NCBI GenBank assembly: GCA_001304315.1
Contig: LJUW01000023.1
Coordinates: 1-32,579, forward strand
Direction: 5' to 3'
From: a candidate division Zixibacteria bacterium SM23_73_2
GTDB taxonomy: Bacteria; Zixibacteria; MSB-5A5; SM23-73-2
DNA length: 32,579 nt
Part shown: positions 3,333 through 10,077 of the stretch, piece after piece
Layout: every line of letters starts with the position of its first letter
How positions within the stretch are numbered: the first letter of the stretch is position 1
Notes under the pieces: generated by a model
Told to the model about the DNA's origin: nothing
The model's input: only the letters and a program-made list of their open reading frames with translations
The model's database searches: none
Translations under genes and position numbers: made by a program

Positions 3333-3540
3333 ATGCCCAGATTCTTTAAAAAAGTATCAAAAAAAGCTGGCCTTTCACCGGGAGCTTTGGTTCACATCGG
3401 GAAGAAGAAGGTCGAAAAGACCAGGATCAGAATTATCGACTATGATGAATCTCAGTTTCAGGAAAAGGAGGCAAAAGAAATTGAGTAATGTTTTGCTTTT
3501 AAGGATAAACCGCTGCTTAGAGCAACCCAGATTATTAACA
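3333..3540 (+). pseudogene. corA: corA 5' fragment 1 (51-codon open remnant)
   Basis: An ATG at 3333, preceded by GAGGTGA, opens 51 codons ending at TAA 3486-3488. The product matches residues 1-51 of the intact CorA at 7123 with only four differences (I5F, L42F, V47A, V50I), and the DNA differs at few silent sites. The stop arises where intact corA has GAA (Glu52), by a single G-to-T change. Readable similarity continues out of frame-control to about 3540 ('CFxFKxKP') and then fades. The metal-channel part of CorA is absent. The remnant keeps a promoter and ribosome-binding site, so it may still be transcribed and translated as a short peptide upstream of the permease. Confidence 0.88.
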
Positions 3541-3580
3541 CTACCCTGCTAAAGTACTACACTCAAAAAGTAAGATTGGG

Positions 3581-5062
3581 ATGAGCATCAAAAGAACCAC
3601 TAAGGTTACTCTCAAAAGAGAACTAAGGCTTTTTGACGTAACCAATCTGGTCGTTGGTGCAATCATAGGGGCTGACATCTACGTGGCTGCAGCTTTAGGA
3701 TCTTCACTCATCGGTCCGGCTTCTCTGCTGGCCTGGGTTGCAGCAGGCTTGCTTGCCATCCTCATTGCACTCTGCTTTGCTTACAGTAGCACACTTACCC
3801 CCTCATTGGGCGGGCCGTATGCCTACGTCAAAGAGGCTGCAGGCAATCTACCAGGATTTATGGCAGGTTGGTCTCTGCTTTTGGCAGAATGGACTTCGCT
3901 TGCGGTATTTCCGGTGGCATTTGTTCGTTATTTTAGCTTCTACTTTCCTGATCTCGGCTTTTGGGAACAAACCCTTCTGAAAGCTGTCTTTATGTCAATT
4001 ATCTTTATCACAAACTTGATCGGGATCAGAGCTGCTGGTAAGACCAATGATGTTCTCACCATTGGCAAACTGGGACCTCTCTTCCTTTTCATGGTCTTCG
4101 GTCTGTTGTATATGGGAGTTCATTCCAAAGAATCGCTTTCTTTTTTCACTCCCTTTCTTCGTGGGAACTGGAGTGACTTCGGCAAGGTCACAGTATTAGT
4201 CTTTTGGGCTTATGCTGGTTTTGAACTTGCGACTATACCGGCTGACGAAATTGAAAATCCGAGGCGAACCATCCCCAGGGCTATCCTTGTGGGTATGTCC
4301 ATTGTGGTATGCTTTTATTTAGTCACCAACTTTGTTATAAATGGAGTGCTTTCTCAGGAAGTTCTCTCTCATTCGACCGCACCCCTGGCCACGGCTGGTG
4401 CCAAGGTGATGAGCCTGATCCCGCATTTTGGTTTAATTGGAGGAGTCCTGCTCTGGTTTGGAGCTCTAATCTCCATTACGGGAGCGGATGAATCTGGCAC
4501 CGTGGGTACCTCTCGATTAGCCTATGCTATGGCTGCTGATGGGCTTTTGCCCAAAGTGTTTTGCCGTCTTCATCCACACTTTCATACTCCCTATCTTAAT
4601 TTAGGGATTCTCTCCATCACAGCGTTTGTGGCCAGCACCATTGGAACTTTGACCCAGCTAATCAGCGCCTCCGTGTTTTTCTTATCCATTGCTTACCTAG
4701 ATACAACACTTTCTCTCTACGCTCTGGAGAAGAAATATCAAAAGATGGCTACGCAGCTCAGGCTTCGGCATATCATTCCAGGACTGGGTGCTCTTGCTTC
4801 CATTTTCATAATCACTCAGGTGGGATGGCATCAAATCCTGACGGGGATATTACTGCTCCTTACAGGAACTCTTATCTACTTTTTCTACGCACCCAAGCAG
4901 AGATTGCACTATGTGTACCAAGAACTCTTCAGCCGCGAGGCGGTTTTGAGAAGGACTTACAGACAAACGGAGAGATTTTTGGCTCACCCCCTGCACCACA
5001 TCAAGCGGATGATCCATAGGCGGAAGGGGATTCCCCCAGCGTGGCACGTAGAAGAGAAATAA
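3581..5062 (+). CDS. APC-superfamily amino acid permease
   Basis: 493 residues with about twelve hydrophobic segments, the usual size for the family. The first membrane helix carries the substrate-site signature 'NLVVGAIIGADIYVAAALG'. Helix 3 has 'GGPYAYVKEAAG', and the loop 'AYAGFELATIPADEIENPRRTIPRAI' is typical of APC transporters. The substrate cannot be read from sequence; amino acids or polyamines are likely. The C-terminal tail is short and basic. No clear ribosome-binding site precedes the ATG, and the start lies 92 bases after the stop of corA fragment 1, whose promoter may drive it. The codons just upstream give no better start. Confidence 0.9.
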   Translation: MSIKRTTKVTLKRELRLFDVTNLVVGAIIGADIYVAAALGSSLIGPASLLAWVAAGLLAILIALCFAYSSTLTPSLGGPYAYVKEAAGNLPGFMAGWSLLLAEWTSLAVFPVAFVRYFSFYFPDLGFWEQTLLKAVFMSIIFITNLIGIRAAGKTNDVLTIGKLGPLFLFMVFGLLYMGVHSKESLSFFTPFLRGNWSDFGKVTVLVFWAYAGFELATIPADEIENPRRTIPRAILVGMSIVVCFYLVTNFVINGVLSQEVLSHSTAPLATAGAKVMSLIPHFGLIGGVLLWFGALISITGADESGTVGTSRLAYAMAADGLLPKVFCRLHPHFHTPYLNLGILSITAFVASTIGTLTQLISASVFFLSIAYLDTTLSLYALEKKYQKMATQLRLRHIIPGLGALASIFIITQVGWHQILTGILLLLTGTLIYFFYAPKQRLHYVYQELFSREAVLRRTYRQTERFLAHPLHHIKRMIHRRKGIPPAWHVEEK

Positions 5063-5301
5063 CTCACAGCCAGCTCCCTCTCTAAGGATTCAAAGACGAC
5101 AGGATTCTGGACCTACTATGTCAATGGGCATTCGCTTCACCATTCATGTGGCACATAAGAGAGACAACAAGGCCACTGAAGATCTGAAATATGCAAAGGG
5201 GCCTTGCTGTATGATTTGTCAGCCTCAGATAGCAAAGCCACTGTGCGATCAACGGTATATCAGGGTGCTAACCGTGAATAGGTAGCTGAGAATTCTCCCT
5301 C

Positions 5302-5844
5302 TCACTTCTTCTCAGGCTCGATTGCTTTGCCCAACTTTGAGATTTCATTCCCTAACTCATTGATACCCTTACCAACCTCATCAGCAGACCAACCCATGCC
5401 TTCAATTAGCTTTCCTGAACCCTTCAGGTAATGGTGTTTGGCCAAGGCATGATCTGCTCGAGCAAAGGCATCTTTGAGCTGCTTCTCAGAGGCAACAGCC
5501 CCTTTTTCAACGTCTTCCGCCAGTTTTCCCAGTTCGTCTGCCGAAGCCTCCAGTGTCTTTTTCCCCTCCGTTGTCGAACGGCCGGCTTCAAGCTTCAGGA
5601 AGGCTGCGCCTTTACGGATTTCTGAGCCCGCTGCTTTGAAATCCTTCTTTAGAAAGAATTCGTGGGCTTTTTGAAAGTGAAACTCAGGTTCGTCCACCAA
5701 GACTATCCATATATCTTCTTCATAAAGAGTCCAATCCCCAGGTGGTTTTTGAGTAGATTGGGCTTTTGCACCTGCGGGGTAAAACCACAATATACCTATG
5801 ATAAACGCCAGAGCAGCTACAAGCAAAAAGTTTCTGTCACTCAT
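5302..5844 (-). CDS. Exported helical protein of unknown function
   Basis: 180 residues from the ATG at 5844, chosen because GGAGGTGAAAAG precedes it; an earlier in-frame start at 5892 has no such site. Residues 1-28 are a signal peptide with probable cleavage after 'AKA'. The mature part is almost entirely helical and charged, for example 'FHFQKAHEFFLKKDFKAAGSEIRKGAAFL' in pieces around residues 55-85. It also contains regularly spaced 'ADELGKLAEDVEKG' and 'INELGNEISKLGKAI' segments. This suggests a periplasmic helical-bundle or coiled-coil protein. I do not recognise the family. It is transcribed towards the permease and away from corA fragment 2. Confidence 0.75.
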   Translation of the reverse strand: MSDRNFLLVAALAFIIGILWFYPAGAKAQSTQKPPGDWTLYEEDIWIVLVDEPEFHFQKAHEFFLKKDFKAAGSEIRKGAAFLKLEAGRSTTEGKKTLEASADELGKLAEDVEKGAVASEKQLKDAFARADHALAKHHYLKGSGKLIEGMGWSADEVGKGINELGNEISKLGKAIEPEKK

Positions 5845-5918
5845 CTTTTCACCTCCTTTCTTCAAGATTTGGCAATTGCCTTCGCCTTCCAATTATCACT
5901 ATAGTTGAAGTCTCACCC

Positions 5919-5947
5919 TTGACATTTTCAAATTTTTGCATTAAAAT
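5919..5947 (+). promoter_or_regulatory. Promoter upstream of corA fragment 2 and the MscS-like gene
   Basis: TTGACA (5919-5924), 17 bases, TAAAAT (5942-5947). It is identical in hexamers and spacing to the promoter at 3244-3272, consistent with both having been copied together with a corA 5' end. Confidence 0.75.
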
Positions 5948-9539: not shown

Positions 9540-9609
9540 ACTTGAAGTATAACTGGCAAGAGCACTACTGCTTTCGGCATATAAAGCGTTCCTAAAATGT
9601 TAAGACATG

Positions 9610-9638
9610 TTGATTTATGATCAATGAGTATGTATAAT
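9610..9638 (+). promoter_or_regulatory. Promoter of the lapA-like gene
   Basis: TTGATT (9610-9615), 17 bases, TATAAT (9633-9638), about 50 bases before the chosen ATG. Confidence 0.65.
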
Positions 9639-9688
9639 TAAAACATAAATAAGTACGTTGAGATTTGTATCAATATAGGAGTGTACTT

Positions 9689-9895
9689 ATGAAATCCAAA
9701 AGTATTATCATTCTTATCATATCTTTGTTATTTCTGATAATAATTCTACAGAACACCCAGGTTGTTACGTTGCAATTGTTCTTCTGGAAAATCGAGATGT
9801 CCCGGATCATTCTTTTGATTCTAACATTGCTAATAGGCGCTGTTATTGGATATGCTGTTGCTGAAATTGGAGCTGGTAGGCATAAAAATAAATGA
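9689..9895 (+). CDS. lapA: LapA-like small inner-membrane protein (DUF1049)
   Basis: 68 residues from the ATG at 9689, preceded by TAGGAG with seven-base spacing; a TTG at 9665 in the same frame has no such site. Two membrane helices (about 5-22 and 38-60) flank the family signature 'QNTQVVTLQLFFWKIEMSRIILLI'. In E. coli LapA works with LapB in control of lipopolysaccharide synthesis. Many lineages carry LapA-like proteins alone, so the role here is not certain. It has its own promoter and sits between the CNNM-like gene and a corA 3' fragment. Confidence 0.82.
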   Translation: MKSKSIIILIISLLFLIIILQNTQVVTLQLFFWKIEMSRIILLILTLLIGAVIGYAVAEIGAGRHKNK

Positions 9896-9931
9896 CAGAG
9901 TGTATTTTAACGTCGTTCCAATACTCATATG

Positions 9932-10077
9932 CTCACTTTCATTGCAGGACTCTATGGAATTAATTTTTAATTTATGCCAGAGCTCAAGTGGCACGGGGGT
10001 CATTTTGTGATACTGGTTATTATAGCATTGATGGTATCTCCATGCTGATTTATTTAAAGAGGAAGAGGCGGCTATAA
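9932..10077 (+). pseudogene. corA: corA 3' fragment (last ~48 codons, degraded)
   Basis: From 9932 the sequence reads '[24 protein letters not shown]', matching intact CorA residues 307-330 ('[25 protein letters not shown]'). A TAA replaces the Glu codon and the channel signature reads YGIN. After a frameshift near 10030 it ends 'GISMLIYLKRKRRL' and a stop, matching 'GISLLFYFKKKRWL'. No 5' part precedes it. It ends 24 bases before the L,D-transpeptidase start. DNA identity to 8041-8187 is high in the first 70 bases. Confidence 0.9.

Follow-up and report, generated by a model that had tools for sequence, protein, structure and literature searches.

The window analysed here, an entire 32,579-nucleotide contig (C54) of a Zixibacteria genome, carries one intact corA gene and three broken corA pieces. 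We consider it likely, at a probability of roughly 0.72, that these pieces are the remains of older paralogs left around one surviving gene, within an acquired block of about 18 kb that appears devoted to membrane and envelope functions. The distances between the copies support what would be an ordinary history of duplication and decay involving at least two older corA copies. No new mechanism is needed, because hotspots free of mobile elements, homology-based integration and tandem duplication during transformation are already in the literature. The locus offers a readable case of an island without a recognised mobile element that records duplication and decay in gene scars, and it also points to a surviving gene that still exchanges short tracts with its relics.

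One intact corA gene and three relics

Comparison at the DNA and protein levels identified four corA pieces, all on the forward strand, with repeat finding, open reading frame listing and a six-frame search of the host's own genome in agreement. This confirms a preliminary description of the window that had recognised one intact gene, two 5' fragments and one 3' fragment, and that had correctly read their polarity, with the 5' scars on the left and the 3' scar on the right. The intact gene (7123-8187) encodes a protein of 354 amino acids that matches Pfam CorA (E 9e-77) and TIGR00383 (E 8e-104). Given that the TIGR00383 score of 347 bits exceeds the curated cutoff of 200.75 and that YGMNF, containing the GMN motif, is found at codons ~312-316, the predicted product is a CorA Mg/Co transporter by family criteria.

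The remaining pieces, relics 1, 2 and 4 by their order along the window, are each truncated. Relic 1 (3333 to ~3527) retains the 5' end, codons 1 to ~65, at 88% overall DNA identity to the intact gene (E 2e-29), and its frame is open for 51 codons before ending at a TAA at 3486-3488. Relic 2 (6030 to ~6340) also retains a 5' end, codons 1 to ~107, at ~70-75% identity (E 1.7e-13 for the best stretch), and carries a one-base deletion near 6112 together with several stops. Relic 4 (~9913 to 10076) retains the 3' end, codons ~300-354, at 82-85% identity (E 4e-11); it contains a high-identity block at 9931-9999 and lacks any single open frame. The starts first assigned at 3333, 6030 and 7123 are upheld, whereas relic 2 reaches ~6340, up to the start of the adjoining MscS gene, and the start of relic 4 is closer to 9913 than to 9932. 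The E-values of the three relics exclude chance similarity, and all three display the significant homology, truncation and broken frame expected of gene relics; stops occur in each, and relic 2 is also frameshifted. When the host assembly (metagenome-assembled, 2.26 Mb in 123 contigs, 86% complete) was searched in six frames, no further corA match came up elsewhere, and the middle part of corA was not found in the gaps between the pieces at the locus.

Homology extends beyond the coding sequence, as relics 1 and 2 also match the intact gene over ~25-35 nucleotides (nt) before the ATG, including the ribosome-binding site. The corA of a further genome, G007, has the stretch in common with relic 2 and the intact gene as well. 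At its other end relic 2 abuts the MscS start codon, and the GGAGG before the MscS ATG is relic sequence aligned to the corA codons for M-E-D. This end of relic 2 probably acts as the ribosome-binding site of MscS; in our reading, the relics are otherwise dispensable. The 5' pieces might instead have been retained as expression leaders, each supplying a ribosome-binding site and a corA start to the gene that follows, an APC-family permease after relic 1 and MscS after relic 2. Both pieces are codirectional with those genes, the MscS GGAGG lies inside relic 2, and the frame of relic 1 has stayed open for its 51 codons. We nevertheless regard this explanation as highly improbable: relic 2 is frameshifted and contains several stops, relic 1 is set off from the APC gene by 54 nt of unrelated sequence, relic 4 has no downstream logic, and the low level of change in relic 1 is accounted for by recombination with the intact gene.

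Kinship and mosaic identity of the copies

We compared the relics with 127 corA sequences, some of which are repeat fetches of one gene. Relic 1 exhibited 88% identity to the local intact gene, with the next best sequence at 71%, and relic 4 exhibited 82%, with the next best at 68%. Because both are closest to the intact gene among all of these sequences, we read relics 1 and 4 as its in-lineage paralogs. Relic 2, at 69% to the intact gene and 68% to the G007 corA, may be an older copy or one of uncertain origin, possibly a xenolog.

The pairwise DNA alignment that the preliminary description had called for revealed, in addition to homology, a mosaic pattern of identity. Over 3333-3451, relic 1 and the intact gene disagree at only 4 of 119 positions (97% identity), and beyond this tract at 14 of 64 (~78%), a split that departs from even divergence (permutation p 0.0008), and the two share an identical run of 41 nt. 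The ratio of distal to proximal divergence is 6.5 in relic 1, as opposed to ~1.0, with a maximum of 1.5, when 77 other corA genes are set against the intact gene. Relic 4 follows a similar but less marked course, with 4 differences in 69 positions and then 19 in 79 (p 0.01-0.03), at a place where constraint also shifts (control ratio 1.5). These data would be most simply read as homologous recombination over a short tract shared by the intact gene and relic 1. A stop codon sits just past the tract, so the intact gene was probably the donor and the relic the recipient; a comparable exchange with relic 4 is probable. Taking gene conversion to be marked by a tract of raised identity that is flanked by lower identity and exceeds what constraint accounts for, relic 1 shows this signature and relic 4 shows it weakly.

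Tandem duplication formed during transformation has been described (PMC3784515), whereas a literature search on duplicated corA in bacteria yielded no relevant paper. The locus resembles tandem duplication followed by decay and gene conversion in having partial copies around an intact one, stops, a frameshift and mosaic identity; it differs in that its copies are separated by other genes and that both 5' and 3' remnants survive.

A probably acquired block between radC and lon

All four corA pieces lie in the left part of the ~18-kb block, which occupies approximately 3308-21060 between radC and lon. From left to right, the block comprises corA relic 1, an APC permease, an exported protein, relic 2, MscS and the intact corA, followed by CNNM, LapA, relic 4, an L,D-transpeptidase, an M15-like peptidase, YihY, TamB, TamA and DUF389. 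A genome of the same order (G005) exhibits the gene order MEMO-radC-lon-hsp20-ychF-HAD with a radC-lon spacer of 485 bp and no block. The block is likewise absent from G003 and G002, whose spacers hold about 3-3.7 kb with unrelated genes for exported proteins. The congener G001 carries, from a reading of translations, isoprenylcysteine-methyltransferase-like and FKBP-type genes in its spacer (C49:1-1570, L071); its radC contig continues into ppdK and uvrA, and this genome is itself also rearranged or mis-joined at the radC site. Between 3158 and 21426, G001 shares just short spacer and repeat matches with the window: similarity to its spacer stops near 3307 on the left, where relic 1 begins, and returns at 21064/21426 on the right, and no corA match was found in this congener.

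The block genes also stand apart in codon usage, with host codon scores below the mean in 12 of 12 (z -0.6 to -4.6), while the flanking genes lie near or above average (block versus flanking, Mann-Whitney p 1.6e-5). The best relatives of the block TamA and CNNM within the order reach 26-37%, and none of the 10 other genomes of the order has the L,D-transpeptidase. Given that relatives lack the block at radC-lon, that its codon usage deviates and that three of its genes have distant relatives or none within the order, the block seems to have been acquired by an ancestor in the radC-lon spacer. As had been noted for transposases, no mobility gene was recognised: Pfam and NCBIfam scans of block genes revealed no transposase or integrase, and no tRNA or Rfam element was found at the locus. 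The block therefore combines two hallmarks of a genomic island, an empty site in relatives and deviant codon usage, with the absence of a third, an integrase, transposase or tRNA at its edge.

The radC-lon spacer is filled differently in each relative (G001; G003, L194; G002, L195; nothing in G005) and, from these comparisons, looks like a turnover hotspot. Many chromosomal hotspots are without recognisable mobile elements and integrases, and the published survey found an integrase in 45% and a tRNA or tmRNA in 29% of hotspots (Oliveira et al. 2017, PMC5635113). The window is like these hotspots in having conserved flanks (radC and lon), different DNA in each relative and neither integrase nor tRNA, and unlike them in that five genomes were compared here and that copies of a dispersed repeat lie on both sides.

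This dispersed palindromic intergenic repeat, with the core GGGGAGACC..GGTCTCCC, has a left copy at 3163-3232 (+ strand), which aligns to 21167-21237 at 68% over 73 nt (E 2.6e-6), and repeat comparison placed three right copies on the same strand within 21064-21389 (21064-21102, 21168-21195 and 21306-21389). No copy lies inside the block. A single further copy was seen among nine sampled contigs of the host's own genome, and G001 holds many, one of them at the equivalent place next to lon, marking it as a common intergenic repeat of the genus. Recombination between copies of this repeat is a possible entry route for the block. Separately, the interval 2187-2382, between the MEMO and radC genes, contains short repeats in direct and inverted orientation, among them a perfect 20-nt inverted pair (2313-2332 and 2363-2382).

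Since the genome is metagenome-assembled in 123 contigs, a mixture of strains could have been joined at shared corA k-mers. The 41-nt run shared by relic 1 and the intact gene is a place where such a join may have arisen, and an analogous duplicate in another locus, L111, is a scaffolding artefact with a run of N. Such an origin is very unlikely, however. The relics are 12-30% diverged (20-30% for relics 2 and 4 and the distal part of relic 1) and each has unique flanks, the locus contains no run of N, the radC and lon flanks fit the ancestral order on both sides, and the block genes share a common codon deviation.

Together, these findings suggest the following history. A block with corA and its usual neighbours would have entered the radC-lon spacer, presumably by a horizontal route, leaving the presence/absence pattern and the codon usage described above. 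Within the block or its donor, corA would have duplicated at least twice, as the distances suggest, perhaps giving rise first to relic 2 and afterwards to the one or more copies that became relics 1 and 4. The spare copies would then have been shortened by deletion and point mutation, consistent with their truncation, frameshift and stops, and neighbours inserted or rearranged between them, in an order that we can only propose. Finally, homologous recombination would have exchanged tracts of ~70-120 nt between the surviving gene and relic 1, and probably also relic 4, most plausibly from gene to relic in the case of relic 1.

Several points weigh against this history. In relic 4 the mosaic signal is weak (p 0.01-0.03) and falls in a conserved part of corA, and relic 2, nearly equidistant from the intact gene (69%) and the G007 corA (68%), could be a xenolog. 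Since other genes separate the copies, insertion or rearrangement of genes between them must also be assumed. No genome was found with full, undecayed copies in place. The repeated duplication and truncation proposed in the preliminary description are supported in that each fragment is closest to the local intact gene, relic 2 barely, whereas the tandem arrangement is one that we infer rather than see.

Recurrent neighbours and corA scars elsewhere

Between relics 1 and 2 lie genes for the APC-family amino-acid permease (3581-5062, + strand; Pfam AA_permease_2 E 1.9e-44) and, on the opposite strand, an exported helical protein (5302-5892) with no Pfam or NCBIfam match, whose codon-usage z of -4.6 makes it the strongest outlier of the block. 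The remaining genes around the corA pieces, all on the forward strand, encode a small MscS-type mechanosensitive channel (6345-6866, 173 amino acids; Pfam MS_channel_2nd E 4.8e-15), a CNNM/CorC-family membrane protein with CBS domains (8301-9539; Pfam CNNM E 1.2e-55, CorC_HlyC and CBS) and a LapA-domain protein (9689-9895, 68 amino acids; Pfam LapA_dom E 2.4e-10).

These genes had been described as unrelated cargo, a view that, for several of them, comparison with other phyla does not sustain. In Syntrophales and several archaea, corA has MscS on its upstream side; LapA is found downstream of corA in G016, G017, Aminicenantes and Omnitrophota, and CNNM beside corA in Omnitrophota, Thermoplasmata and Zixibacteria, while DUF389 neighbours corA in G016 and Methanotrichaceae and TamB-TamA does so in several Zixibacteria. 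Because all of them recur beside corA in other phyla, MscS, CNNM, LapA, DUF389 and TamBA are better seen as a likely functional neighbourhood (ion, osmotic, envelope) than as random cargo, which leaves the APC permease and the exported protein unexplained. The intact protein itself groups weakly (89/85) with those of G016 and G017, of the same class, in which corA is followed by LapA (and in G016 by DUF389), as in parts of the window block; LapA sits at the same place, directly 3' of corA, in both, at 59-62% identity. CorA proteins of this type are scattered over many phyla, archaea included, which suggests that transfer of corA between lineages is probably common.

The preliminary description had further proposed that corA copies help to capture genes. 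In its explicit form, incoming corA-bearing blocks would join by homology at one end and by illegitimate joining at the other, leaving a scar at each seam. Several observations accord with such a recombination platform: the 5' scars lie left of the intact gene and the 3' scar right of it, mosaic identity indicates that the copies recombine, relic 2 could be a xenolog, CorA crosses phyla readily, and the window brings together two neighbourhoods, corA-LapA-DUF389 and corA-TamB-TamA, that occur apart in the other genomes of its class. Homology-facilitated illegitimate recombination, or homology-based integration, has been described (PMC3240628), and it would likewise leave partial copies of the anchor gene at one seam. 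The platform is nonetheless unlikely. The interior corA scars of the window show no donor block boundary, as GC changepoints in the block coincide with them no more than expected by chance (P 0.48). Relics 1 and 4 go with the intact gene as its paralogs and do not point to separate donors, and the visible insertion junction is the radC-lon spacer, not corA. Comparison with relatives, which had been suggested as a check, yielded no second multi-scar corA locus, whether in the phylum (133 genomes) or among 98 corA loci, and corA scars are no commoner than those of other genes once the window is excluded. Gene capture by corA is therefore not supported, having no positive evidence beyond geometry. 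It is quite improbable, too, that a widely transferred corA and its habitual neighbours (MscS, CNNM, LapA, DUF389 and TamBA) served as an anchor merging blocks from different donors, with one scar per merger; if they did, functional neighbourhoods could be assembled without any mobile element. Were corA scars to mark block seams in related strains, this would constitute a mobile-element-free route to functional gene clusters, which the present evidence does not provide.

The base rate of such scars came from a scan of 1101 genes in 116 loci, in which 12 genes had a nearby intergenic fragment copy, four of them corA with the window included. This corresponds to 4 of ~103 corA genes and 8 of ~1000 others. 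Once the window and a contig-edge case are left out, the corA excess amounts to 2 genes, which we judged not significant without a formal test. We therefore rejected corA as a scar hotspot, with only these two clear cases remaining; duplication and deletion leave scars of genes in general, and the data do not set corA apart in this respect. The contig-edge case is a second corA 3' end in L083, which may be a whole gene. Partial corA matches in G104 (C248), G087 (C197), G092 (C335) and G007 (C200) were likewise set aside as lying at contig ends. An apparently perfect corA 3' copy at 5281-5390 of L111 adjoins the run of N mentioned above and was dismissed as a scaffolding artefact, of a kind that can mislead duplicate scans.

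The two clear cases bear on a further explanation for relic 4, namely that it is a 3' end displaced by an integrative element that attached at the 3' end of corA and brought CNNM-LapA as cargo. As with integrative elements at gene 3' ends, the 3' end of the intact gene recurs 1.7 kb downstream, with identity peaking in one block, and corA 3' pieces also occur downstream of corA in a euryarchaeote (L143; 4.1 kb, 95.6% over 90 nt) and in a member of the Syntrophales (L087; 4.6 kb, 79%). We regard this origin as most unlikely, because the block has no recognised integrase or tRNA, because the intact 3' end and relic 4 are identical for no more than 30 nt in a row, because the same gene left two 5' scars, and because CNNM and LapA belong to the usual neighbours of corA. 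In L143, moreover, an intact MscS-corA pair has 3' relics of both MscS and corA (5784-5881 and 6747-6839) on its downstream side. This is the pattern that decay of a duplicated MscS-corA unit would leave, and such a unit fits the corA relic there better than displacement does.

In a further Zixibacteria contig (L101), four partial 5' copies of ~240 nt, at 72-88% identity, lie at 11539-13495 upstream of the gene that they match (13675-14356), so that the repetition of a gene's 5' end goes further there than in the window.

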